A stretch of 64,000 nucleotides of DNA from Amia ocellicauda (Eukaryota > Chordata > Actinopteri > Amiiformes > Amiidae), in NCBI RefSeq assembly GCF_036373705.1, contig NC_089858.1, positions 9,720,001 through 9,784,000 on the forward strand, written 5' to 3'. The notes under the pieces are model-generated. The model had not been told where the DNA came from and did no database searches. It saw only the letters and a list, made by a program, of their open reading frames with translations. Position numbers and translations under genes: made by a program. Positions within the stretch are counted from its first letter, which is position 1, and every line of letters starts with the position of its first letter. Positions 34,701 to 64,000 of this stretch are shown here, in pieces.

Positions 34701-35290
34701 AGGATTACTTTCTGACAGATGCTCTGGTACAGGCCTCACTGAGAATCCAAATATTTATTTTGTATGTGATTCCTGCCAGAGAAAGAAATAACCGACTAAT
34801 TTCAGTGTACCAAATATGTAATTTGAGTATGTATTGAGTTAAAACCTGACATTTGAGAAGCATGATTATCAATTATTTCAATGAAAATCTGTAAGAGTGT
34901 GGATGCTTTGCACAGAAAATGAGTTCATCATAGTGAAAGAGTTTAGTTCTGCTGGGCTGTGTGGCAGTGACTATAACACTGTTGTGTTTTCAGGAGCTTG
35001 AGAAGTGCGAGTCCAACCACTTGATGATCCTGTTCCGTGATGGAGGCTGCCAGTTCAGAGCACTTTATTCCTACTTCCCTGAAGTGGAGGAGATCCACAA
35101 GCTGACAGGCACGGGGCCCAAGAACATCACCAAGAAGATGATCGACAAGCTGTACAAGTACAGCTCCGATCGCAAGCAGTTCAACGTCATCCCGGCCAAG
35201 ACGGTGTCCGTCAGTGTGGACGCCATCACCATCCACAACCACCTGTGGCAAGCCAAGAGACCGACAGTGCCAAAGAAGACCGGGAAATAA
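1635..35290 (+). CDS. camsap1: camsap1: calmodulin-regulated spectrin-associated protein 1 (microtubule minus-end binding), complete, 17 coding exons
   Basis: CAMSAP/Patronin proteins bind and protect free microtubule minus ends in the cytoplasm and also bind spectrin and calmodulin. Coding exons by GT-AG junctions: 1635-1794, 16140-16402, 20908-21069, 22380-22460, 24803-24944, 25171-25310, 25412-25508, 26563-26743, 28232-28323, 28657-28741, 29139-31605, 31799-31935, 32218-32426, 33649-33751, 33992-34107, 34519-34637, 34994-35290. All phases agree and give 4,851 nt, or 1,616 aa plus TAA, close to the roughly 1,600 aa of human CAMSAP1. Order: conserved N-terminal block (LYDSARAKIDANLRW near residue 30), calponin-homology domain (about 215-335), disordered acidic and Ser-rich middle with coiled coils, and C-terminal CKK domain (about 1478-1612). 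CAMSAP1 rather than CAMSAP2/3 is chosen from residue-level similarity along the whole length and from kcnt1 nearby. The start was chosen as the first ATG after the acceptor; a second in-frame Met lies 15 codons on. No break or stop was seen. Confidence 0.96.
2693..3588 (+). mobile_element. Tc1/mariner-like relic, about 0.9 kb
   Basis: The left end (GCCTTGCTAAAGTATTCAGA) and the right end read in reverse (CATCTCGCAAGAGTATTCAG) are similar inverted termini of the kind found on fish Tc1 elements. Inside, the plus-strand frame 3071-3331 keeps pieces resembling the helix-turn-helix part of a Tc1 transposase (NHQET, then VSKLSSWAWRKLRDATARP). The catalytic half is missing and the frame is degraded, so the copy is dead. 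It sits in camsap1 intron 1. Confidence 0.7.
9018..9089. repeat. CA microsatellite
   Basis: About 34 CA units with one early TACA interruption, directly before a degenerate minisatellite. Likely polymorphic. Confidence 0.95.
9105..9440. repeat. degenerate minisatellite-like tract
   Basis: Two halves. At 9125-9290, variants of a GTCAGTTAATTNGT-like unit recur at irregular spacing. At 9335-9425, AACTTCCAGAC or a close variant recurs four times with interspersed ACCAGT/ACAAAC. No known family recognised. Confidence 0.55.
12770..12935 (+). mobile_element. degenerate tRNA-derived SINE-like repeat
   Basis: The order of blocks GTGGAGTAGTGCTGTGGACT, then ATGGTTCCCAG (decayed B-box), TTGAGCAAGGTACTGTACT and GTATCAATGGGTAATTGT matches a SINE family that I recall from sturgeons and other fishes. 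It is old: A-box and B-box are eroded and no clear target duplication was seen. Confidence 0.6.
16140..16402 (+). CDS. camsap1: camsap1 coding exon 2
   Basis: A well conserved 88-codon exon begins with the split Asp of DHIPEDLRDPFYTDQY and ends in CAPIKM with donor ATG/GTGAGT. It is GC-richer than the introns around it and near-identical in sequence to the CAMSAP1 family N-terminal region. It follows the 14.3 kb first coding intron. The next exon (20908-21069, 54 codons, beginning STHMPMIDALMMAYTVEM) continues the same conserved block. Confidence 0.93.
16403..20907 (+). other. camsap1: camsap1 intron 2 (4.5 kb)
   Basis: No gene seen. Contains A24 at 18217-18240, T runs near 19668-19685 and 19779-19800, an AAAAT-type run near 19319-19343 and an AAAT microsatellite at 20370-20408. 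The segment between the two T runs looks like ordinary intron. Confidence 0.75.
20370..20408. repeat. AAAT microsatellite
   Basis: Seven AAAT units followed by an A run, in camsap1 intron 2. Confidence 0.9.
21070..24802 (+). other. camsap1: camsap1 introns 3 and 4
   Basis: Introns 21070-22379 and 22461-24802 flank the 81-nt exon 4. Intron 3 has a GT/TA microsatellite at 21139-21181; intron 4 has C-rich runs at about 23751-23774. No other structure was recognised. Confidence 0.75.
21139..21181. repeat. compound GT/TA microsatellite
   Basis: About ten GT units pass into TA units with one GTA interruption, 70 nt after camsap1 exon 3. Confidence 0.9.
22380..25508 (+). CDS. camsap1: camsap1 exons 4-7: calponin-homology (CH) domain block
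   Basis: Four short exons (22380-22460, 24803-24944, 25171-25310, 25412-25508) encode residues 196-349. Recognisable blocks are the helix INKVNLKMREITEKELK, the core DLMKDVCDGAALLAVIHYYC, the stretch ADSLYNIQLLKEFANEYLN, and AELFWWFE. This is the single CH domain of CAMSAPs, which in this family is not an actin-binding tandem. All four introns have consensus ends; the 24944 donor is G/GTGTGC. Confidence 0.92.
25685..25740. repeat. compound TA/CA microsatellite
   Basis: About 19 TA units followed by short CA units, close to the Penelope-like fragment. Confidence 0.9.
25790..26060 (-). mobile_element. Penelope-like element fragment (start of GIY-YIG domain plus downstream region)
   Basis: Minus strand 26056-25991 reads CNTTGVICM then LTCPCGQVYIRQT, which is the start of the GIY-YIG endonuclease domain of Penelope-like retroelements (second Gly of GIY-YIG type motif replaced by Arg). 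Immediately downstream come CTGATGA (25966-25960) and GAAACGCGTC (25947-25938), a core like that of hammerhead ribozymes known from Penelope ends. The reverse transcriptase and the rest of the endonuclease are absent. It is a short, internally deleted relic in camsap1 intron 7, and its outer limits are approximate. Confidence 0.6.
28354..28365 (-). promoter_or_regulatory. CTCF-like site
   Basis: GCCCTCTAGTGG; the minus strand reads CCACTAGAGGGC, an exact fit to the core CTCF consensus, with CTGC adjoining as in strong sites. It lies in camsap1 intron 9. Occupancy is unknown. Confidence 0.5.
29139..31605 (+). CDS. camsap1: camsap1 exon 11: large central exon
   Basis: A single 2,467-nt exon encodes residues 468-1290, about half of the protein. 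It is mostly predicted disorder: an acidic run (EDEDEEEEEL), many Ser/Thr-Pro sites, a coiled-coil stretch LHMQLEEKRRAIETQKKKME followed by RQRLKLGKAAF (the spectrin and calmodulin-binding part of the family), and a Gln-rich helix near QQQMMQLSLQQDQ. It ends in SVLGFFFK with donor AAG/GTACAG. Reading beyond the donor runs into intron sequence (residues VQCVYMLVC onward), which is not coding. Confidence 0.95.
31799..32426 (+). CDS. camsap1: camsap1 exons 12-13: highly charged coiled coil
   Basis: Exons 31799-31935 and 32218-32426 encode a long Glu/Lys/Arg helix (AEDELAKKRAAFLLKQQRKA, then RKAEEDRIRKEEEKARRE) and a basic segment (KPKAKPKKQRPKSVH). In CAMSAPs this coiled coil and linker sit just before the CKK domain and contribute to microtubule association. 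The exon 13 acceptor is weak by eye (CCTTGAAG), but the frame and family alignment require it. Confidence 0.9.
32427..34993 (+). other. camsap1: camsap1 introns 13-16
   Basis: Introns 32427-33648, 33752-33991, 34108-34518 and 34638-34993, with consensus ends. C runs and G runs occur near 33630 and 34655-34670. No gene or repeat family was recognised. Confidence 0.7.
34519..35290 (+). CDS. camsap1: camsap1 exons 16-17: CKK domain and stop
   Basis: Exons 34519-34637 and 34994-35290 encode the CKK domain, the CAMSAP signature that recognises microtubule minus ends. Motifs seen: PIIHNAISHCCLAGKVNEP, ILFRDGGCQFRALY, TGTGPKNITKKMIDKLYKYS, FNVIPAKTVSVSVDA. The protein ends in KKTGK followed by TAA. 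This is the most conserved part of the gene and fixes the family assignment. Confidence 0.96.
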
Positions 35291-37897: not shown

Positions 37898-40800
37898 ATG
37901 AAGCGTAAGTACTTCCATATTTATCCCTTGTTTAAATGGATTAATATCTTATATTTTGCCACAGCACTCTCAGTTTTTGTAGAGGTTGTGCTTCTCACCG
38001 TAATGTCTCGGATACTAAATGGGGAATGTTTATTTTGCATGTATCATTTGCATTTGTAAAGAAATTTTAAAGTATATTTGTAAAGCATGCAATTTTTCAC
38101 AAATGAATTTCAGGAAACTTAGCTATTTAATACTACATATGGAAGAATTAATTACTTCAGTCAAAATAATTAACTGAAAGAACAAAACTGAAAATGATCT
38201 TGTTTTTGGCAGACACTTGCGTCTTCCTTGCAGTAGTTGTAATCGCTGGATATTTGAAGTCTGCTGGCTGTGAGTGTTATTTTGAATTGGTCTACATCTG
38301 CACTACTGTACCACAGAGTAAGTGCCATTTTTATTAGGGAAGAAGTGGTTGGTTTGGACTCCTTGTGCTAAGAACTACTACTCGTCTTTAATTATAATCT
38401 TCAATACATTGATCTCACTTAATATATGGTGATAATGACATTGCCTTTTCAATTATCCTCACTCTGTAAAACTATGCAGGAGTCATCTGAACACAGCAGT
38501 GATTGATCGAATTTTTAATGTATATAATCTTATAAAAATAAATTAAAAGTTGCATGATAAAGTAGAGATTTGAATTTTATTTATTTCAATGTTAAGATTT
38601 ATCTGTTTATTTCAATTTATTTCAGGTTTCCCTCCTGGCCTATCATCAATAGTTTTCCTAGTGAAGGACGTTGGAGTCATTAACGCATCAGCCTTTGCCA
38701 GTGACAATCTAGGCTTTGTGTCTAGTGTGTCTATGGCTAATGCTGGCATTGCTCAAATTGAATCTGGGGCTTTTAAATCCTTCAATCAGCTGAAGAAACT
38801 CAGCTTGTACCGTAATAAACTCACCCAAATCAGCAGCGTCTGGCTGTCTAGGCCGGAGGCCCTGGACAACCTGACCATGTTTGAAAACAACATTCAGAAA
38901 ATCGACGGAAAAACGTTGTCTCCCTTCTCAAATCTGCAAGTCCTTAACCTGGCAAGAAACCAAATTAATGCAATTGCACGGGACAGCTTTCAAGGACTGG
39001 ACAAACTTGTCTTCCTGGACCTGTCAGGAAACAGACTGTCATATGTGGACAGGGATGCGTTTCTCCCTTTGCCATTCACCATGATCAGACTGGATGGCAA
39101 TCCGTGGGATTGTTCATGTAAAGTAAAGGATTTTGCACATTTTCTCAGAGGTAATGGTACAACCTATCTTCTATGACTGTTTCTTTTCTTGTTTTTGACT
39201 CATGGATTATTATAACCATCATTAACAAAGTGCCTTAATTCTACCTGGCTTGTTATGGATGAGACCTTTTCATTTCTGTAGTGCTGCATGAACCCTTATG
39301 CGACTTCAGACAGTGAGGTCATGGTGCTTTAGAGTCCAGCATCCTGAAATCTGGGTCATCTGGAGGGAGAGGAGAGCCATATGCTGGTGTTCGGCCTCCA
39401 TTTCTCCTGTGTGTGATATGAAGGTGAAGCGGCTTCAAAAATGCTGTATACTGGGTGCCTAACAATTTACAAAACCAATGTTTAATTTTTTCCCTTAGAT
39501 CGAATGAATGCTTCTTTACTTGAAAATGAAATGGCTGTTACCTGTGAAACCCCCGCCACTCACAAAGGCATGCCTGTGTGGAACATGTCGGAGCTGAACT
39601 GCTCGGCCCCCAGCACGGCCCCGAGCACGGCCCCCAGCACACCTCTGCCGCCCATAGATGCACTGGTTCATATAGGAGTACCTGCTGTCATCAGTTTCCT
39701 GGGTAAAGCCCTTACTCGTTCCTTTCTTAAAGATAACTAAGGCTGTAGGCTTTGTGGTTCTCCTAATATCTACTTGTTAATATTCAACAAGTATTTGAAT
39801 TTTGACCCCCCCCCCAACCCCCTCCACCTTTCACTCCCAGGAGGTCTTGTAGTCAAATGCTGTCCAGTCTTTATTACCTCCTGAATACATCCCCCTAACA
39901 GATCTGGCCATAATCCAGTGAAAAGCTAAAACATGCATTCAAATGTGAAATTTGACCGAATGTAACCCTCCCTCTGCAGGGTCTGAGTCATACTTCCAAG
40001 GGACTGGGAGCTTTCCTTATGAACTAAATGGCCGAGAGAGAAGGGCGCATGTGAAATCCCAAAATTATAATACTTTTCTCATTACTAACGCTATCTTTTG
40101 TTTTACAGTCATTCTCTGTATCCTGCTCTGCATCGTTCTTATGTACAAAAGGAAGCAAGAGAAAAAACAAGTGAATCCGGACAGAGAGGGACTAGAAGAG
40201 CGCAACTTCCCTAGGACAGAAGGAACGACAGCAAAGGCTGGACAGGAGGCTGCCACTGTCCTGCAAGGGAGGCTAGAGGAAGTGAGTTGTGGTACAGGTA
40301 TTTCCAAGAACAGCGTCATGAAGGGCAGGGCCAAATCCGCCTCTGCTGTTCTCTCCATATGTGAGTTCACACAGCACAGTTACAGGGGGGAGGGGATGAA
40401 ACTCGAAAACATGGCCCTCTCTCAACCTCAGGGCGATAACTTTACAGATCAGAGTCCCGGAAAGCAAATAAAAATCATTGAAAGTGGCATGATTAAAGAG
40501 GGGGCCGTTGTGTCAGTGTTTGGTTTCAAAGCCTTCCCACTCACCATTGCTCAGTACACTGGTGAACACTATGTAGACTATCAGACCAAAGAAACCAAAG
40601 GGAACTCAAGCGCTACGGTGGAAAAGGCATACATGTGTGAGTCTGCCAGTGACACGAGACAGATTTCTGAAGGAGCTGAGAACTTACCTTACCTTAGCAT
40701 TGACACTAAACCAGCCAAACAGACCATGGAAACCACAGCTCAATGCCACCCAATTCCCAAAAAGAGCCAGGGACTCAGCCGCACTATCAAAAGGATGTCG

Positions 40801-41406
40801 ACCTGGCCACCCACAAAGACTGAGTGGAAGCAACACCAAGTGGACACACATGATATCCAGAAAATAGCCCTGCAGCAGGGGGACTCCTCTCATGTGTGCC
40901 AGAAGGTGGATTTCTTATTCGGAGACAACTCTCAGAGCAAACTCCAAGTGCACCCTGAACCAGAGAACGTGGGTTTCTTCAGAGATAACTCTCAGAGCAA
41001 ACTCAAAGGAAACCATGACTGTGAGTCTGCGCCACAGACTGATGGACTAGATGGGACCAGCGTGGATAATCCCGATGGGAAATGCTCGTCTATAAGTGAG
41101 GAAACGTCCAAAGGAGGGGAAAGGCCTCGGCAGTTTACGATTGAAGACACGGCCAAAGTGAATCATGGGAAAAAAAGAGCCGGCTCCCAAACTGCAGGCG
41201 AGAAGAAAAGAACCCGGCTTAAGCAGAGCGCCGCCCTCTACCCCCGGGCCAAAGAGGAGGAGAAGAAGGATGACTTGCAGGCTGCTTGTGTGAGTAGCTA
41301 CCCGGGGGATGCAAACCTGCTTCAAGAAGTCGTGGAGAATCAGGGCAGGTGGACCAGAGACCGATGGAAGCAGACTCACCAAGTCAGACACAAGTTCAAA
41401 CAATAG
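37898..41406 (+). CDS. LRR-TM gene A: type I leucine-rich-repeat membrane protein with long cytoplasmic tail (712 aa, 5 coding exons)
   Basis: Exons 37898-37904, 38213-38317, 38626-39150, 39499-39702 and 40109-41406 join in frame (2,139 nt). The start is the ATG of the 7-nt first coding stretch, donor C/GTAAGT; it gives a clean signal peptide (MKHTCVFLAVVVIAGYLKSA). Next come a degenerate Cys-bearing LRR N-cap (CECYFELVYIC), five to six LRRs (LSLYRNKLTQI, LNLARNQINAI, LDLSGNRLSYV), an LRR C-cap from residue 196 (NPWDCSC with two later Cys), a short APST repeat (249-260), a transmembrane helix at about 271-292 and YKRKQEKK as stop-transfer. The roughly 415-residue tail is hydrophilic, with basic KKRAGS and EKKRTRLK patches, a duplicated DNSQSKL and LPYLSI around Tyr475. 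Function unknown; the family's ectodomains usually bind ligands or partner proteins. Organisation resembles LRRC53/LRRC66-type proteins, but orthology is not established. AATAAA lies 115 nt after the stop. Confidence 0.82.
39607..39642 (+). repeat. 12-bp tandem repeat encoding APST units in gene A
   Basis: Three nearly identical 12-bp GC-rich units encode Ala-Pro-Ser-Thr three times just outside the membrane. The result is a short mucin-like, possibly O-glycosylated stalk between the LRR C-cap and the transmembrane helix. Such units readily change copy number. Confidence 0.7.
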
Positions 41407-41520
41407 GGCTGGTCCCTATAGCTCACAGCACACGATCCTCTTAAATGTCATAACGTAAGGCAGAGACTGTTTTTGGTACTTTATCTTCAGCTATGCAAAG
41501 CCTGATCACACTATGAAATG

Positions 41521-41526
41521 AATAAA
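41521..41526 (+). terminator. gene A polyadenylation signal
   Basis: AATAAA 115 nt after the gene A stop codon, the first one downstream. Confidence 0.55.
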
Positions 41527-42740
41527 TATATTGGAAACTCTTAGCATTCGTATTTGTTCCATGATTTTTCTGGTTGAAAGAATGATGGGATACCACTAAC
41601 GGACAGATTCCTTCAACACTTTGAGCTTATTTACAGTAACCAGACTTGTGTTTTAATTGCATTGTCTGTTTTTCAGTGGTAGTTTCCAAAAAGCAATGAA
41701 TGCAAATGAAATGTATTTTGGTACTTAAAAACAAATGTATGTAATAGTTTGATATACAATTTACACAATTAATCATTCAGCACAAATTCACTGTATTTTT
41801 CACTGTTTTTCTATTTTGTAATTTCTCTATTTAAAAAGTTAAATCTCTATATTGGACTCTTTTTAAAAATTATAGAATAGTACAGAGGCATTTTTAGAGA
41901 GTATAATGAAATGTAAGATTAGAAATATCCTTTTATCTGTACTATATCAGATTTCAGGGTCTTCTATGAAGAATGTGCTTGATTTGTGCAGAATGGCTAT
42001 CTGCTGCCCTCTGTTGTTTGTTTTAGGGAATAAAGCAAAACTGTGTGGAAAAAAATGATATTGTAGTTTTCTGTTGCTCCGTAGAAAACAACTGCAGCAA
42101 AAAACTATTGAGAGTTTCAAGACACCTCAAACTAAATTACATTACCCCGACAACTACTGTTCCATCCTCTTCTACAATTGTCCTTCACTTCATCCCATAT
42201 TAAATAAAACATACAAAAACAGAATACAAATACATTTATAATACCACAAAATCATTCAAAATATTCACACATGCATCTGACACTTTTCTTGTACAAATCA
42301 CTCAATACAATATAAAAATACATTATTTACAGCAATTAACCAGTGAGGAACGAGCTGCTCTTATTTTAACATGGGTTTTATCATGAGAAGACCTTGTGTG
42401 TTAGTGTAGAAGTAAATGCATACATAAATGATGCGCTTAAATTGTGATTTTATTTTTTTAACGAGCAAGCTGACCACATGCTGATACATTAGCATTTCAG
42501 AACAGCTGTAATTTAGTAGCTTCATGTTTGGGCTTGTGGACTGGGTTAATGTGTAAAGGGAAAGTCATATGGTTGATTGGACCGGGTGTTCATCTCTAAG
42601 CCAAACAAAGGAAATATCCATCCATCCATGAATATTGGCAGTTAGGAATGCAGCATCAATAAACGGGTTTCAAAACCCCACACAGACTGCTGCTGTTGAG
42701 ATCTGGACATTGGCTTCTTGCAACTTCTATCAGCAGAAGA
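41527..42740 (+). other. spacer between LRR-TM genes A and B
   Basis: AT-rich spacer of 1.2 kb. It holds a CTCF-like site at 42001-42020 and presumably the promoter and 5'UTR of gene B near its end. No TATA box or CpG island stands out. Confidence 0.6.
42003..42016 (-). promoter_or_regulatory. CTCF-like site
   Basis: Minus strand reads CAACAGAGGGCAGC, a good but not perfect CTCF core, in the spacer between LRR-TM genes A and B. Confidence 0.35.
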
Positions 42741-45700
42741 ATGGATAGTAAGTTACCTTCAGTTGTTACAGTATCTGCTTACCATTACCAAAGCTCTACT
42801 GGGCTGGGATTACATTACTGTTGCGATTTTTTTTGTTTTTGTCTATTTATATTAATATTAATAGCCCATGAACACAAATGAAATATTTGAAGTTACCAGT
42901 GATTTTATTTTTAAGTTTGTCACAGGTTCGCTGTATGCTTGTTTGCAGAGGTGCTGATGATTCTTGCCCTGCTGATGCCCCCCTGTAGCCTGGCACAGCT
43001 CTGTCCCACAAACTGCAAGTTCTGTTCGACTGGCCTGGCAGACTGCGAGGACATTTCCTCTCTGGTGCTTGGTAAGAACAGTGTACAATTGTACTCATTA
43101 GAACTGGATACATTCCTCTGTTACTTTGAGTATAAGTACATGTGATTGTATATCTCAGTTGACAAACCCAGGACACAGCTCTATTTTTTTTTTTTTTTTT
43201 TTTTTTTTAATATTGTATTAATTTGATTAATTTTTTTTACATAGGTGTCTTAAGCAGTGTTTAAATGACTGTTGTCATACTTGTGTGCATTGAAGATACC
43301 GATCTTATACGTGCATTATTACAAAGTAATGTGTATATTACAAATAAACTAGTCTGATTTTCAAAATTTCATTTTTTTAATTAACTATGTATGCCATTAT
43401 TAGTCATCCTTCTATTACATTTCATGACCTTAATTTATTCATGATTGACAAAATAGTACAATCCAATAGTCTCTAAGAAGAAGAAAAAAAAATATATATA
43501 TAAAAAGATCTGGATTGTTAATTAATTCACACATGAAAGGAGTTTGCTGATTTCATACTAAATGAATCTCTGCCATTATGCTACAATAATATATGTACAT
43601 AACTTAATATTAAACAAGATTTTAATGGGAATATTGTGCTTAAGTTTTGTCAGGGATCCCCACCTCTATTGATAAGATCTTACTTCGTGGAGGACCTGTA
43701 ACCCACTTCCCAACAGGAGCGTTCAGGAACTTTTCCCACCTCAAAGTGTTATCCATCAACAACTTCCCCATTTCCACTATGATGAACTACTCGTTTGACC
43801 TGGGACAAAGCAACCACTTAAAAGAACTGGACCTCAGCAAGAACCGACTCACCAGCTGTGGAATAGAAGCTGCCAGCTTTGCAGATCTCATGAACCTTAC
43901 ATCTTTCACCTTGTCTAACAATGCGCTCAATACCTTGAGAAAACCCTGGTTTCAATCCATGGTGAGTCTTGAGAATCTTCAATTGGAAAACAATGGAATT
44001 ACCTACCTGCAACCAAGACTTTTTGAAAACTTGCTTCATCTCAAGAAACTGAACTTGAGCTCCAATCTCATCAGCTACGTGTCCACTGATACATTCTTCG
44101 GTTTGAGAAATTTGATTGAACTGGACTTGGCTGATAATAAGGTGATGTCAATCAGTGATGACGCCTTCAGCCCCTTAAGAAACATTGAAGGCATTGCTTT
44201 GTTTCACAACAATTTAAAAGTACTGCCCACCCTGCCAGCGTCCACAAGTACATTGCAACTCCATAGCAACCCCTGGCTGTGCAGCTGTGTGCTGGTGAGC
44301 ACTCTGACTGTGCTGAGAGAGAGAGTTATGCTTCCTGCCAGTGTTGTCTGTGCCAGTCCCGCTGAGGTTAAAGGACGCCAAGTTCTTGATGTCTACAACT
44401 TTGTCTGTAAGACAAATACTACTGACAGTGGGTACCCTAACAGTGGCTCAGAAACACAGCAATCCTGTCAGTCATGGGTCTACGGATTGATAGGTAACCA
44501 AAATACTCATACTAGAGACAGAAAAACTTTTTATTTTTTTTATTTACAAGTATAAATGTATTGTGATAAGTATTTTGTGTTTATGAGCATTAGCAGTTTC
44601 CAGATGGAATTGGTAACATGGTAACGCCAGTGACATGCTCAGTTTAAAACTGTTTTTTGATTAGTGAGAAATACCGTGGTTTTATGATAGTGGTGAGTAC
44701 AAACCCAAACCATTATGATGTTTTTTCCCAGAACAAACTAAATTATTTAGCATTCTCACTAAACAAGTTGTGAAAGATATAATTAATAGTGTGCATTTAA
44801 ATATAAAACTAAATATGATGCTTTAGGGAAACTCTTTTCTAAACACTTTTTTTTTGTATAAGTTATTTGTACGAGAGCAAACAAATATCTGTAAAGGTTC
44901 AGGTGTCCATTGGCTTTATAGATGCTTTTCGAATTAAAAATGTTTGCCTTCATCTCTTGCAGGGGGGTTCGTACTGGCAGTCTTTTTATTGTTGTTGATC
45001 TGTCTCCTTCGAAAGCACTGCAGACAAGGCAGTGTCACTGACCCACTGAGCGATAGGAAGGAGGGGGACGGCAGTGCATGTAGGGGACAGGCAGCAGTCC
45101 TGCAGGAGACATACGCTGCTGTGGCAGCTCTGACCCACATGCCTCCCTCTGCTGCACACGGCTACACACGGGACACTGGGCTCCAGGCACAAACTGAGCT
45201 TGACTGCCTTGGTGGAGAGAAGGAAGAGCAAAGCACAGGAAGGGAAGATCAGATTCGCTTATGTAGGACAGCTCCAGGCTTTCTTACAGCGGTTGATGAA
45301 CTCCATCAAGTGACAAGTGGAGAAGAGATGTCCAATGCTGAAACATCTGGTGAGTTGTACATTTGCAGGCCATGTTTATATGTTTATTGCAGATCATCTG
45401 TCTAAACATTGAAATATGTGCCTTGACACAACAAAATTGTATGTTAGATTTTCTTTTCATTGTCATTGCAGTCTAGTTTGAAGGTGTTCAATAAAAACCT
45501 TTTTCTTTTCCTTTCACAGGTATGAAATACTTTGAGACTGAGTTTGCTAACCTCTGTGATGGTCCCAACATCTGTTTTCCAAATCCTGGCCTGCAATTCA
45601 CAGAGCACACTGAATCTCACAAACAGGATACAGGCAAGTACAGAATGAGAAAAGTTTCAGGCAAAAGAAGCAAATCCCTTAATAATTTGTCTCTTAATAA

Positions 45701-46538
45701 GAGAGATTCATCCTTTGAGGTGGAGCACAGTACCAGGCTGTGTCATTTTGAGCTTAACTACTCCTCTGCCCCTAAGAATGACACACTTACTGATACCAAG
45801 GTGACCAGAGACCAATTCAAAGTTAAGGACCAGTGCAATGCAAACACAGCAGGCTTAAAACTGTGGGAGAGATGTATGGAATCCAATGAGAACTTGTTCC
45901 CCAAAGTTGACTATACCCAGCAGAGCAGCAATTCGGTTTATTCAGATGGAGTGTCTAAAGGTTGCTTGGGGCTTATTCAACCACATTGCATAGAGGTTGC
46001 AGAAGATGATGGGTATGTGAAACTGGGTGCCTCCTCTTCATCCAGCTCCCCCTGTAGTCCAAGCTTAAACAAAGCCAGCAACACAGCAGAGAGCAAACAG
46101 GGCAGCAGGCTTTCAAGGACAGAGACGGAGGGCGTTTTGTTAAGTAAGCCACATAGAAACGGTCTCTGCAAAAGCCCTGCATTGTCAGCAACCAAAGGTA
46201 ATCTACAGAGCACTAGGGTGTCTCGTAAGGGTGAGAAGCAGGCAAAGCCAGGGAAGAGAAACCTCGCCGTCTCATGGACAGGTGCGGTTCTGACCAGAGA
46301 GAGGTTCTGGAAGTATCATCAAAACTGCTGTGACGAGTACAGGCCCTGCCCATCTGCCAGGACTGTACTGCAGAGGCTTCCACGGCCCTCCTGCCCCCGG
46401 GCTGCTGGGGAAGCCTCAATCAGCAGGCCTCCAGGAGACAGCGAGCTTCTGAAAAACAATCGCATGCTCACAGTCAATCTCCTACTGCAGCTCCAGGAGA
46501 GAGAGGAAAGAAAAAGGAGTAGGATGAATTTAAAATAA
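42741..46538 (+). CDS. LRR-TM gene B: type I leucine-rich-repeat membrane protein with long cytoplasmic tail (791 aa, 5 coding exons)
   Basis: Exons 42741-42747, 42949-43071, 43654-44493, 44963-45349 and 45520-46538 join in frame (2,376 nt), every intron phase 1. As in gene A, only ATG plus four bases are coding in the first exon (ATGGATA/GTAAGT). The start gives a signal peptide (MDKVLMILALLMPPCSLAQ) followed directly by a classic LRR N-cap, CPTNCKFC with a further Cys. About eight LRRs follow (LDLSKNRLTSC, LSNNALNTL, LQLENNGITYL, LNLSSNLISYV, LDLADNKVMSI). The C-cap starts near residue 249 (NPWLCSC), and a transmembrane helix spans about 319-341 (GGFVLAVFLLLLICLL, then RKHCRQ). The roughly 450-residue tail is Ser-rich and basic in patches (GKRSKSLNNLSLNKR; a run of six Ser near 46,040). 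Function unknown. The N-cap and the NALNTLRKPWF repeat recall mammalian LRRC53, from memory only. Tandem relative of gene A. Confidence 0.84.
43072..43653 (+). other. gene B intron 2
   Basis: AT-rich intron with T25 at 43184-43208. Consensus donor G/GTAAGA and acceptor TTTTGTCAG. No other element seen. Confidence 0.75.
44494..44962 (+). other. gene B intron 3, inside the transmembrane helix
   Basis: Phase-1 intron between LIG and GFVLAV. Donor G/GTAACC is weaker than the others; acceptor CTCTTGCAG. No repeat seen. Confidence 0.75.
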
Positions 46539-47363
46539 AACAAAGATGTTTTTAGTAAAAGCGGACTAAATCAAATGTTTTGTATTCGCAGTTCAGATTT
46601 TCATTGTATGTTTTATGAAGTTCAGCTAATAGTATTGATTATAATCTAATGTATATATTTGTATTTATGTCACACCACCAAAGCAATAGGATTCTTATCT
46701 ATAATAATGGATTCAAAACCAAAACAATATTTTTCCTTTTTTTAAATTCCCCCTTCGAAAACCAAAACGCCAAGTAGTATCTAGACAGGAAGTAAGAATG
46801 TGTGCTACTCTACCACCATCTCGCAACCGAGGCGTGCTGGTCACTGAGCAGCACCTCCCCGTGCCCTGGACGGAGAGCCCGGTGGCAGCTGGAGGCCGTT
46901 CGGTACATCAGAGAGAGAAGTATTTAGTGGATTCAGGAGATGCCAGCACAGGGTTTTACTTTGGAAAACCTCAACTGTTCACAGTCCAGCCTGCAAGCTG
47001 CTCTCTCAGTATGATTACATCTTCAAATGCCCCGCATTTCCCATGAAAGAAAAACATGAATCGAGTGGGGCTCCTGCTGACTGCTCATGCAAATAAGAAT
47101 GGGACACAAAACTGATAATTTAAAGAAGCACTTATTTGTGTGTGATTTTGTTGTGTAGAAATGTGGCCCACCACAAAAATGTCAACAGAAAAAATAGTTA
47201 CTGAAAATCATGACGTTAATTTGAATTTACACCAATGACTAAACTGTGATCATGTTAAAAAATATGGACAATTTGTTTGCATAATGTGTAAGTGAAAGAA
47301 ACCTATGTATAAAAATGTAATTACACAAATATATGTACTGGCCCAATACCTTGAATTATTGAG

Positions 47364-47451
47364 AATAAAGAAGAGATTATCACGGTGAAAAGTCTGTATA
47401 ATGTACAAGTATAATCCAATTTTCTTCCATGGCTTTCTTGTTTCAAATAAA
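47364..47451 (+). terminator. candidate gene B polyadenylation signals
   Basis: AATAAA at 47364-47369 and 47446-47451, about 0.83-0.91 kb after the stop. Another AATAAA overlaps the stop codon itself and is probably too early. Confidence 0.4.
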
Positions 47452-47856
47452 AATTTACGTGGTCAAAAAGAAAGGGCTGGGTTATAGAGAGCATAAGTAA
47501 GTATATGAGAACATATGCAGTTTAAGTTCCTCTGGGCAGATATTTTTGTAATTACCACTGGTCGTCCAATTAGGATATCCCAGTTTGGAAACTGTAATAG
47601 ACATTAACTCATTGCAACCAGCAATTTAAAAAACAACCAAAACCATTTAAACCATGAAATAGGCATTATACACACAACAAAGAAAGACAGACAGGGTATT
47701 CATGTGCACTCAGTTGTATAAAATCTCACTGAAGAAACGAAAGCACCTACAACCACAAAGAACATTGCACTTACCGTGACTTCCAAGCCTTGTCAAATGA
47801 AACTGCAGGAGATATTCTTTATGGCTGCATGCAGCTAGTTTATTGATTTTTCTTTT

Positions 47857-47860
<4 letters not shown>

Positions 47861-47894
<34 letters not shown>
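47861..47894. repeat. TA microsatellite
   Basis: About 16 TA units after a T-rich stretch, between gene B and kcnt1. Confidence 0.9.
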
Positions 47895-47895
<1 letters not shown>

Positions 47896-50800
47896 CATAC
47901 AACAATGAAGTACACAGACTTCATAGAATAAATTGTACAAAAGTGTTCCATTCTGTCACAGTTAACAGAATATTCTGCACATTCAGAAAAACAGACCTCG
48001 GGACTAAAAATCAGTTCATTTTGTTGGTTTTGGCAAGAAGAGAACATGCACTTTTGATATGTAAAACTCATTATATGATGGTGCATTGAGGATACATTTT
48101 TTTAAAGTGGAATATTAAATGCATTAAAAAACATTTGATAATTTTGCAAATAGCTTACAGAGGATTCACTACAGTAGACAATTTTTATTTTTTTAACAGA
48201 TTGCAATGCATGATAAAACCTGCAAAGGACAAGCAATTTCTATCAGTTTTGTTAACTACAAAACACACACAAACACCTGTTCTGTCTGTTTGCAAAAAGA
48301 TTTGTACATTATCCTGGAAAGGTAATCTCAAATCATTATTTTTTGAAGTCTTCTATGATTTTGAAAACAATATATGAATCACTACTTCAGTGTTGCATAA
48401 CTGCCCAGCTGCTTAATATGTAGTATTGTCAGATATGAAGCAAGTTGCTCATGTTTCACAGAATACAGGAAAGGTTATTACTGTAGCATGCATTGAACTA
48501 TTAGTTGGGAACCCCTCTAAATCACATTATAAAAACTCCTATATGAAACTGCAAATGTGTCTTTTACAAGAAAGAAAATGCAGTTGTGTGAGTCTGTTAT
48601 TGTGTCTTCAGTTCTGTCTTGAATTCTGTAAGTTGAGAGCATTCTAGTGGATTGCAAAGGAAAGGTGCACCAAATGTCACTAGGCTAACTGAATTGCCAA
48701 TCTTTTGGCTTGTTTCACAGACCTCGATAAGCACAAATCTAGGTCTACTCTACCCAAAATTACATTGCGTAATCCTTGACTAGTGCTGATTTGGGTCTGT
48801 GAAACCAGCCCGTGATGTACACATGGAATAACTGTCTTATTACTTTTAGACATACATTTAAAGGGTAGATAGAGTTCCTATAAGAACTGTAAACATTCTG
48901 GAAAACTGTTGGTATAAAAATGGAAAGTACACTTTTATCGGTTTAAATACAAAAGAAACAGCCACATACCTATAGCATTTTAAAATTGAAGTCCAAAAAT
49001 GATTAATGCCTTCATTTACAAAAAACTATTTCCATTTCCTGCTTCGTGTATTATTATACCTTGTAATAAATCAAAGATTGTCTTCTATTTTTGCAGTCTG
49101 GAATGATCATCTGTCTCTCATATAAAGACTCTCTTATAGACTCAACCATTGTGATGGATTTTAAAATACCTAATATTCCTATTATTATTATTATTATAGA
49201 TACATTATATGAGTACAGTGACAAACCAAATGAAGAAAGAAACCATGACCTTGTGCTATAGCTTCCATTACCTGATAAAACAGAAATGTGAATAGATGCC
49301 CTTGTCAATACTCAATGCATCTGATGTGATTCTCACTTTTTGTGAGTCCCAGTAAACTAGAATAGACCTCATGTTTGTGGCAGTGCATTAATCACAATAG
49401 TGAATCACCCAGATTTCTCTGGTAGGTTTAAATCAAAATGAATAATTTCTAAATACAGCCATTAGGATGATGGTAAGATGCTTTTACTGGAAATTTCCCT
49501 TGTCACATTGTGATTCTAACACTCACTCACTCATTGTCTGAATCCAATGTAGAAAACAGAAAATACTCAACCATTTACTAAAGTGTTTAATTTCTGTTTT
49601 CTCTCAAATTAGGCTTGAACGAACAAACTATAATGAATACCTTTCAAGAGTCTAAACCCATTTATATTGTAACACGAAAAGCACTTAACTACTTTTAGAG
49701 TACACTGAGCCAGAAAATGCCAAAATATTGATGATAAAATCTGAATGAGTAAATCTGAGTGAATTCCATGAAATAGTAATGTTATTGCGGCACACTAAAA
49801 CTGGAATGTTACTTGACACTTCGCAGTTCTCAATCTATAGTGATCACCTTTGATGAGATTGAGAGACTCAGTGTTGGATTTTGTAGTGTGGAATATCGAA
49901 GGAAAAATCTCCCTCTGCTAAACAAAAGCTAACTGTGCAACAAAATGTCATATTAAAAATCAAAGAAGGTATAGAAGTAATATGTATAATATTACATAAC
50001 AATGCCCAAAACCTACCAAATATGCTACACAATATGCTCTGTTTCTCTCATGATATGTACTACATACACTCCGTCATCATATATAGTTTCACACGTAATT
50101 TTCTCGTGGGCATTTGACACAATGGTGGTTTAGCCTCCTAATACAGTAATGCAAATTATGGTGCCTTCAGATGAGTGAGGGACAGGAAGCAGAGCTATAG
50201 AAGTACCTATTAAAACTATTCTTGAACGAGAACTTATGGCACAGTCTCCCTGAGTGTTGCATACTAGTTGTCAAAGCAGGTTATGCAACATCAGTTATTA
50301 CCATCTCAAAAAGTGCTGCCTTTTTAAATGTTACCCGTTGGGATTCCTCATGAGGTACAGAATAGTTGCTGGGAAACATTTAAATAATAATAATTCTGAA
50401 GTGGTATTTGACATGCAAATGAAGCACTTGGATGACATCATACCAAAACCTATGGTCTGCTTCACAATCCCTCACATAGTAAAACACTGAAATGTGGGTG
50501 GCCTGCTTCGTTTATGCAGTATCCAAATAATTTTTTTTTTTAGTAAAATATAGATCTGTTTGGGTACATTCATGAAACAAACTAAAACTGTGAGAAAGCC
50601 TGTTGGATATGCAAATAGTTATTTACAGTTTAAAGGGTTCATAAATATACTTTAAATATAAAGTCATGACAGTTTCATACAGAAAGTGGCTAATTTCCTG
50701 TCTCATGACTTGTGTGTCTGGTTCATGCATTTATCCCTTTGAAAAACATGTTTCAAAAGTAAGACAACAACAGGGTGTCTTATGTACAGAGCGACAGAAA

Positions 50801-53227
50801 ATGCCCTTTTTGAAATGAGGGCGACATCCAGATGTAGCCCAAGCAGTATTGCCTATGTATATGCTATTAATAATCAATTAACTTTAGTTTCTAGTGGCAT
50901 TTCTTTCATTTACAAGATACAATTTGGCAGGTTGACAGAAAACACAGTTTTTCCAGAAGATATTTACAGGTACTACTTATAAAATCTGAATATACACTGA
51001 ACAAATAGTACATAAATACACATTTACAAATCATACGTTTTACCATCACAAAGCCCTGCTCGGTTTATACAACTCAAGATGGCGTCAAAGCACGACTCCT
51101 GACCACCCACCACAGCCTGGCATCCTAGCAACAACAGGAACTGCAGCTCTTGCAGACGGTAGAGGGAGTCTACACACAGAGACTGACACAGAACTCTCTT
51201 CACATTAAACGCGATTCCAGTGTCCCTTCAGAACACACTGAGTGCAATGTGTTTATCCCCATTTATACATCACTGAAGTACCTTTTATGCATTCCTGAAG
51301 ATATGGTTTACAGACGTGTTGACTAGACAACCAGCGTTTTCGTCTTTATGAATTTCATGGTTTGCAGAAATGTCAAGAAGCAAAAAGGCCACACTGGCAG
51401 AGCTGAATACACTCTCTTACTGTGCAATGCAATGTGCAGAATAGATTCAGTTTAAACCAAAATAACCAAAATGGGTTATTAATATTGATTAATTCTGATT
51501 GTATTGTTGTCATTTTCTTTTCTTTAACTGTTTATGACAGTGACTGAAATACAATAACCCCTTCCTCATCAGATCAAATCAATGAATATATATGTATGAT
51601 AGATAGAGAGATCATAGAAAATAATTTCCTGTTGTTCTGTGAGCCTAAAACTGTTTTAGCTTTTAGTTTTAGCTGTTGGCTTATGCAGTAACACCACTTG
51701 CTTGCTCAGCATTGTAAACAAAACAATTCAAACATTATCAGACCATCACAGTTATATATAAGCTACTTGTTGGGTAAAGATAGGCATAAAAAATAAACAA
51801 ACAGCAGTTATTCCTCAGAGGACAGAATCTTGATATATTATGCTTCCTCTTCAATGAGGACAATACATAAATTCATGATAAATTAATATATAAATAATTA
51901 AAGGTATACATTACATTAATTGGATAGAATAAATGATGACAGAAAAACTGTATTAGTCATTATTCTTTAACTTCTTCAAACTGTAAACTTGATTCTGCCT
52001 TGCTCAGACTCCTTATTGTAGAAAGGAAACTCGTAAACGGTTTAAAGTTTTAAAAACTGAACAAACAAACATCAAATCTCTCTAACCGCATATCTTTGTA
52101 TCCTATGTTTTGTAACATCCTGTTATCAGGATCAGTTTTTGACTAAAGAGCAATATAAAACCTATGATAAATCCAGGGCTATATGACCAAAAAGAAAAGC
52201 AAACTGCAGTATCTTAGCCTTATGTTATGTTTGCAAGATAAAAGGAAACCTAAAGTTAAGGGAAATCCCATAGCTTCACAGAATCACCACCAGAGGTTTC
52301 AATCAGAAACCCTACATTACTCCGACCACAGATATGATTAATTTAACTTTATGAAGATGAGCAGGGTGTCTTTGCATCAAAAGCAGCAGAAAAGGAAATC
52401 TGGTGCAAACTCAGTAGTCTCACAACTGACATCGTACAGCACTTTACACACAGACTGACAGAGGGGACACCTATTGCAAATCCCTGAATCTCCCCTGTTA
52501 TACGATAAGCTGAAAAGCTCCAAATATATATTGTAATGTTTATACCAGTCTCTTTATACAAACAAATAACCGAGATGATCGTGTGTAAGATTTTAGCTGC
52601 AGTTACAACCCCACCCCTTGTTCTAGGAAGGTTTTCCCCATGACACTGAATTTCTTTTTTTAAATTGAAGCCAATTGCATGAATAAGCTTGGTGTTCAAT
52701 GATAAATCAAATGGGTAAATATGTTAATAATCTTTCCATTCCATCATAGTACAAGCTGTTGAACATTGGTCTTATTCTGTAACTATCCTTGTCCTTTAAC
52801 TGAATAGGCATTACTGGATTACTCATATAGACAGCTAATGACCCCATCACATTACTATGGAAAAAAAAAAAAAAAAGTTTTGATCCAAAACTAATCATAA
52901 TTAAAGGACTTTCTACTCCAAACAGTACCTTTTGAAAGCAATCCTTCTTGTTATATTCTGGCTCACAATATTCCTGGGATCGGTAAATTGTGTCTTATTA
53001 AATTGGCTTACGTTGACAGCAAGGTGGTGTTCCTTTAGTGAAAGGCAAATATCAAAAACACACAATGCAATTCAATCATACCCCCTCAGTGTTGACCCCG
53101 TCGCTGCAGTCTTCTCTCTGCTGTCCTGGACCAGGTGACCATGCCTGGCCAATAGCTTCTCTGTTGCTGTGGCGCTCCCACAGACCTCGGCTAAGCAACG
53201 TGGTGGCAATAGAGTCTGGCGCAGGCT

Positions 53228-64000
<10,773 letters not shown>

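Follow-up and report, generated by a model that had tools for sequence, protein, structure and literature searches.

Two adjacent genes lying between camsap1 and kcnt1 in Amia ocellicauda, here called g1 and g2, are best read as type I membrane receptors of the LRRC53 family arranged in tandem; we give their membership of the family a probability of about 0.78. They occupy positions 37898-41406 (g1) and 42741-46538 (g2) of the window, the 64,000-nt stretch of contig C9 that was analysed. We assign them to the LRRC53 family because they have a gene structure in common with lrrc53 and lie on a chromosome paralogous to that of lrrc53; gene models, topology, the shared intron architecture and the pairing of the chromosomes were all obtained from sequence. 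The flanking genes are convergent, as an earlier note on this DNA had described: the CKK domain at the 3’ end of the upstream neighbour camsap1 was matched at 34940-35233 on the plus strand (C9:9754940-9755233) together with a CAMSAP_CC1 domain, and a coding piece near the 3’ end of kcnt1 was matched on the minus strand at approximately 60337-60615 (E 1.4e-42; the limits are those of the searched piece). No further related LRR copy was found elsewhere in the 64,000-nt window, and Rfam gave no match there at the gathering threshold. Mammals are not known to have genes of this kind at the camsap1-kcnt1 site. No paper joining camsap1 and kcnt1 with synteny or leucine-rich repeats was found in the searched library.

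Both genes, proposed in that note to be complete and multi-exonic, were modelled with five exons, GT-AG introns and a terminal stop, and all exons are on the plus strand. The g1 model encodes 712 aa, and its CDS starts exactly at 37898 with a first coding exon of only 7 nt (ATG AAG C|, phase 1, 37898-37904); ATGnnnnGTAAG lies within 400 bp 5’ of exon 2, an outcome reached by chance in 0.8% of base shuffles. Exon 2 (38213-38317) encodes the signal peptide and a degenerate LRR N-cap, exon 3 (38626-39150, also supported by Pfam) the LRR repeats and the start of the C-cap, and exon 4 (39499-39702) the remaining C-cap, an STP-rich stalk and the first half of the TM helix. Exon 5 (40109-41406) encodes the second half of the helix and a cytoplasmic tail of about 420 aa carrying an ITIM-like LPYLSI. 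Its acceptor is best set at 40109, within an open frame of 39949-41406, because a clean TM helix (273-291) results; a last exon beginning at the frame start, 39949, was dropped. A polyA signal follows at 41521. The g2 model encodes 791 aa and likewise begins with a 7-nt coding exon (ATG GAT A|, phase 1, 42741-42747; 0.9% of base shuffles), followed by exon 2 with the signal peptide and LRR N-cap (42949-43071), exon 3 with the LRRs, C-cap and first half of the TM helix (43654-44493, also supported by Pfam), exon 4 with the second half of the helix and the proximal tail (44963-45349) and exon 5 with the distal tail up to the stop (45520-46538, codon score). The CDS ends exactly at 46538, and its stop codon shares bases with an AATAAA at 46534.

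Both proteins have a hydrophobic N-terminus acting as predicted signal peptide, Pfam LRR_8 matches (5.4e-21 for g1, 2.1e-33 for g2) and one strong TM segment, in agreement with the earlier description of LRR type I membrane proteins. Of the LRR N-caps that had been attributed to both, that of g2 is intact (CPTNCKFC...C), and that of g1 has lost cysteines and is degenerate (CEC...C). Pfam LRRCT reached 15.6 of the 20 bits required in g2 and was uncalled in g1, while the C-cap cysteines are present in both, and each ectodomain carries 5 N-glycosylation sequons. The tails, about 420 aa (g1) and 448 aa (g2), are mostly disordered and, as claimed before, contain no named domain, since Pfam gave nothing above threshold beyond the LRRs in either protein; a sub-threshold SRPRB match in the g1 tail (13.4 of 25 bits) was taken as chance. 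Tail motif counts in g1, g2 and lrrc53 are mostly near chance, with NLS-like sites above expectation in the lrrc53 tail (8 vs 1.6) and slightly so in the g2 tail (2 vs 0.6), and R-x-x-S/T mildly above expectation in the g1 tail (6 vs 3.4). The scored matches from a search of the whole 988 Mb genome include no second copy of either tail, and no relatives of the g2 distal tail were confirmed in viral and prokaryote contigs. IGFALS, LRIG1, LRRC15, LGR4 and Toll-like receptors, which have the LRR fold in common with g1 and g2, lead the solved-structure matches (among the best 60 of 238 and 295). Toll-like receptors differ in having a TIR domain in the tail, whereas g1 and g2 gave no Pfam match to TIR up to E 1.

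The gene that ties g1 and g2 to a known family lies in the same genome at C25:16248868-16254710, flanked by an erich3-like gene and fpgt. It was identified as lrrc53 from its position, the adjoining ORFs being assigned by eye to erich3 and lrriq3, and fpgt being confirmed by Pfam. Four introns, all phase 1, are common to g2 and lrrc53: behind the 7-nt first coding exon (a candidate exon in lrrc53), at the N-cap/LRR1 boundary, within the TM helix and within the tail. With the family layout defined from this genome's lrrc53 alone, g2 thus has 4 of 4 introns, and g1 has 3 of 4, with an extra C-cap intron and without the tail intron. In the alignment g2 and lrrc53 coincide at all three shared introns; g1 is offset by two columns at introns 1 and 2 and by four at the TM intron. 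The architecture also corresponds, as g1, g2 and lrrc53 all have a signal peptide, extracellular LRRs with N-cap and C-cap (CPxxCxxC N-cap in g2 and lrrc53), one TM helix and a long disordered tail. They differ in that the lrrc53 tail, 914 aa long, bears no sequence relationship to the g1 and g2 tails, ectodomain identity is 29% (g2) and 28% (g1), and g1 has the degenerate N-cap and the intron changes given above. Even so, g1 and g2 are probably not of an unfamiliar kind; the family is already known, though unstudied. The choice put forward earlier, between a gain on the fish side and a family lost or moved in mammals, needs revision, as gene structure and paired chromosomes point to LRRC53, which mammals have kept elsewhere, in human at 1p31.1.

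Chromosomes C9 and C25 are read as a pair from the early genome duplications because both carry miga and camsap. In the genome search every one of the 19 miga matches fell either at C25:15.74-15.76 Mb or at C9:7.83 Mb, and two of the three camsap loci are on C9 and C25, the third being on C7. FUBP_C was rejected as a further pair, as its matches are confined to C25. For the corresponding human regions, a passage of PMC2211742 places LHX6 at 9q33.2 and LHX8 at 1p31.1, and BARHL1 at 9q34.13 and BARHL2 at 1p22.2. The location of g1 and g2 on the chromosome paired with that of lrrc53 suggests that they are probably ohnologs. An ancestral lrrc53 would have been duplicated in the early vertebrate genome duplications, one copy staying on the camsap1/kcnt1/miga chromosome and later giving rise to the tandem pair, and the sister-chromosome copy being lrrc53, still beside fpgt. 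The option of a loss in mammals then fits a putative loss of the C9-side copies. Alternatively, duplication or transposition of a single gene at a later time may have brought the LRRC53-family genes to C9, an account we consider rather improbable although not negligible: the immediate neighbours of g1 and g2 differ from those of lrrc53, and miga lies 0.5 Mb away on C25 and 1.9 Mb away on C9, yet landing on the paired chromosome would need chance. On C25 itself lrrc53 is 5.3 Mb from camsap, with no related LRR gene within 30 kb downstream of that camsap and no second related copy in the 100 kb around lrrc53.

LRR sequence alone does not settle LRRC53 membership. We compared the ectodomains with 26 other LRR frames, in 15 of which an N-cap, and in 14 a TM helix, lies in the LRR frame, the rest being unassigned. 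The CPxxCxxC N-cap occurs in g2, lrrc53 and 1 of the 15 other frames with an N-cap, and the repeat N-x-[LI]-x-S-C-x-I, picked after the alignment was viewed, occurs in g2 and lrrc53 and in none of the 26; a looser form of the 26-residue repeat occurs in one of these frames. A W[FL] repeat motif was dropped as a family mark, being present in 6 of the 26 (two from one gene). Aligned in register to lrrc53, g2 takes first place among 28 (score 268 against 231 for the runner-up; z 7.7 against 6.6), and g1 is tenth by z. Among 99 matches in a genome search with the lrrc53 ectodomain, counting its own exon 3 (first) and exon 2 (sixth), g2 is ninth and g1 twentieth. In the reverse searches the C25 lrrc53 is the best off-locus match of g1 and ranks sixth among those of g2. 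The ML tree of LRR ectodomains left 17 of 25 inner branches open and did not unite g1, g2 and lrrc53 (grouped in 12% of 200 bootstrap trees), and was set aside as support. The three tails have no similarity to one another (best E 0.88), so g1 and g2 are classed as LRRC53 paralogs and not as LRRC53. The low ranks in the lrrc53 genome search, the open tree and the dissimilar tails would also fit a separate LRR receptor family not specially related to LRRC53, its intron likeness being coincidence or an older common layout. We regard this as unlikely, given the match of intron positions and phases down to the 7-nt exon, the lrrc53-like N-cap and SC-x-I features of g2, and the pairing of C9 with C25.

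That g1 and g2 are decaying or untranscribed is very unlikely; the cysteines gone from the g1 N-cap would fit, and the full open frames, consensus splice sites and coding-like codon usage of the last exons argue against it. The last-exon frames are 432 (g1) and 339 (g2) codons long, stop counted, and have the top codon score among six frames, which is more than chance would give; in 46600-59900 the longest stop-free run is 138 codons. The short N-cap exons (exon 2 of each gene) are unsupported by codon score, and in the LRR exon of g1 the sense frame is slightly outscored by an antisense frame that contains 10 stops.

LRRC26-type proteins are accessory (gamma) subunits of BK channels, and LRRC26/38/52/55 share with g1 and g2 an LRR ectodomain and one TM helix. 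That g1 and g2 serve the adjacent Slack channel KCNT1 in the same way is suggested by adjacency and topology and is highly improbable, as the tails of BK gamma subunits are very short, against about 420 and 448 aa here, and no paper in the searched library brings together LRRC26, auxiliary, Slack, KCNT1 and leucine-rich repeat. LRRC66 is another functionally uncharacterised LRR protein, and the human protein is not known to show an obvious match to g1 or g2. Zebrafish lrrc66 is induced by pneumococcus, according to a passage of PMC9858863. There is almost no literature on LRRC53, which is named in 7 papers of the searched library, one time in each, and its function is unstudied; human LRRC53 is entered as 'Protein predicted' in a list within PMC5787479.

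As LRRC53-family receptors, g1 and g2 may signal along a route that we sketch tentatively: the LRR ectodomain would recognise either a protein ligand or an adjacent cell and signal across the single TM helix to the disordered tail, and the tail could serve as a phosphorylation-controlled docking scaffold, g1 offering one ITIM-like LPYLSI. Since the paralogs retain one ectodomain plan and each has a tail of its own, they have probably diverged in signalling targets. There is about an even chance that the fuller account holds, in which an ancient LRRC53 ohnolog pair was kept at camsap1-kcnt1 in a non-teleost fish but disappeared from mammals, with each member evolving its own long signalling tail. 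If so, vertebrates would have a receptor family with at least three members that is known so far only through one orphan human gene. Two paralogs with differing tails would make orphan LRRC53 a family open to comparison, the 7-nt first coding exon would be a gene start that annotation might overlook, and contrasting the tails and expression of its members may offer a route to LRRC53-family function.

Two plus-strand genes, g1 and g2, are located between camsap1 and kcnt1 in the window, and the claim of the earlier note that both are complete multi-exon LRR receptor genes was borne out, with 5 exons in each. On their two sides, camsap1 was identified by a CKK match at 34940-35233 as well as a CAMSAP_CC1 match, and kcnt1, on the minus strand, by its match to solved KCNT1 (E 1.4e-42). 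The exons of g1 (37898-37904, 38213-38317, 38626-39150, 39499-39702 and 40109-41406) encode 712 aa and those of g2 (42741-42747, 42949-43071, 43654-44493, 44963-45349 and 45520-46538) encode 791 aa. All introns (8/8) have GT-AG ends and are in phase 1, a 7-nt coding exon opens both genes, and an intron interrupts the transmembrane (TM) helix in both. Base shuffles gave a 7-nt exon with GTAAG, no more than 400 bp upstream, at a rate of 0.6-0.9% for g1, for g2 and for lrrc53, an LRR gene on contig C25 of the same genome. Codon scores, for which exons of camsap1 and lrrc53 served as training set and the 46600-59900 flank as background, preferred the correct frame in exon 4 and the last exon of both genes and in the g2 LRR exon; they gave no support for either of the short N-cap exons, and one antisense frame, having 10 stops, slightly outscored the sense frame of the g1 LRR exon. 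The interval between g2 and kcnt1 (46600-60000, about 13 kb) shows no obvious gene; runs of AT dinucleotides occur there at 47.8 kb and at 57.7 kb.

Both proteins have a hydrophobic N-terminus, a single strong TM segment (g1 273-291; g2 321-339), five N-glycosylation sequons on the outer side, and a tail of about 420 aa (g1) or 448 aa (g2); of the 51-residue windows in these tails, 73% and 77%, respectively, score as unfolded. Only LRRs exceeded the Pfam cut-off, in agreement with the earlier description of tails having no recognisable domain. Among the best 60 of 238 and 295 solved-structure matches, generic LRR proteins lead (IGFALS, LRIG1, LRRC15, LGR4 and TLRs). Scoring of 57 and 63 of 254 candidate genome matches revealed no second copy of either tail. 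Within the g1 tail a short stretch occurs twice, as GDNSQSKL and RDNSQSKL (40900-41020), which suggests an internal repeat.

When the genome (988 Mb, 385 contigs; window at C9:9720001-9784000) was searched, the best off-locus match of g1 was C25:16250403, in the LRR gene that ranks sixth among off-locus matches of g2. The 100 kb read there contains a glutamate-rich erich3-like gene, this LRR gene, fpgt (Fucose_pyrophosphorylase, 1.5e-122, Pfam) and an lrriq3-like gene; the names erich3 and lrriq3 were assigned by eye, Pfam giving no match or a sub-threshold match only. We take erich3, fpgt and lrriq3 to be the neighbours of human LRRC53, and because of this match we call the C25 gene lrrc53. 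It has a candidate 7-nt exon 1, ATGACAA followed by GTAAGT, at C25:16248868 (locus L044), and further exons, all phase 1, at C25:16249251-16249370, 16250200-16251009, 16251446-16251958 and 16252438-16254710. As the human protein starts inside the equivalent of exon 2, the annotated human start may miss the signal peptide. Frames that by eye resemble Tc1/mariner-type transposase remnants are found around lrrc53 at C25:16225125-16225821, 16264784-16265468 and 16299212-16299925 (loci L042, L046 and L049).

The exon layout of lrrc53 is that of g2, whereas in g1 the tail intron is missing and an additional intron interrupts the C-cap. The three ectodomain and TM introns fall at the same alignment columns in g2 and lrrc53, and those of g1 are offset by two, two and four columns. 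Comparators were 26 other LRR frames (27 distinct frames minus lrrc53, two of the 26 from one gene), from 40 of the loci matched in the two gene searches (77 and 70 matches), whose sequence was retrieved; in the frame of the LRRs, a TM helix was resolved in 14 of the 26 and the N-cap in 15. A CPxxCxxC N-cap occurs in g2, lrrc53 and one of these 15; N-x-[LI]-x-S-C-x-I, a motif picked post hoc from the alignment, occurs in g2, lrrc53 and 0/26 comparators, and a looser form also matches one comparator frame (L031). By in-register score to lrrc53, g2 is best among 28. Several results count against the relationship: g1 is only tenth by that score, g2 and g1 rank ninth and twentieth in the lrrc53 genome search (99 matches, including two of its own), the LRR tree does not firmly unite the three genes, and the tails of g1 and g2 have nothing in common with that of lrrc53. 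The tie of g2 to lrrc53 is based on structure and more weakly on sequence, and that of g1 on gene structure and tandem position.

Genome matches to camsap CKK lie at three places only (C9, C25:21.528 Mb and C7:1.168 Mb), which suggests that there was no teleost-specific duplication. All miga matches (19/19) belong to one of two clusters, at C25:15.741-15.758 Mb, 0.5 Mb from lrrc53, and at C9:7.827-7.835 Mb, 1.9 Mb from g1/g2; FUBP_C has a single match, on C25, adjoining miga. WDR47 (C25:21516609-21517496, L058), like camsap microtubule-linked, is separated from the C25 CKK exon by about 10 kb. We infer that g1 and g2 are C9-side ohnologs of lrrc53 that arose as a pair by tandem duplication; the 100 kb read around lrrc53 contained no further lrrc53-type copy. 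The human homeobox pairs LHX6 9q33.2/LHX8 1p31.1, BARHL1 9q34.13/BARHL2 1p22.2 and LHX3 9q34.3/LHX4 1q25.3 have published positions that agree with a pairing of 9q33-34 and parts of chromosome 1 (PMC2211742).

A role for g1 and g2 as KCNT1 subunits would draw on adjacency to kcnt1 as its sole basis and is disfavoured by their long tails. Judged from anatomy alone, the LRR ectodomain would serve recognition at the cell surface, the signal would cross via the one TM helix, and the disordered, phosphorylatable tail would be a docking site, for which an ITIM-like LPYLSI in the g1 tail (1 observed, 0.25 expected) is a weak candidate feature.

The literature searched contained no joint mention of camsap1 and kcnt1 with synteny or with leucine-rich repeat; LRRC53 is mentioned there by 7 papers, a single time in each, and one paper enters it as 'Protein predicted' (PMC5787479). 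We file g1 and g2 as new members of the LRRC53 family, itself known but unstudied.
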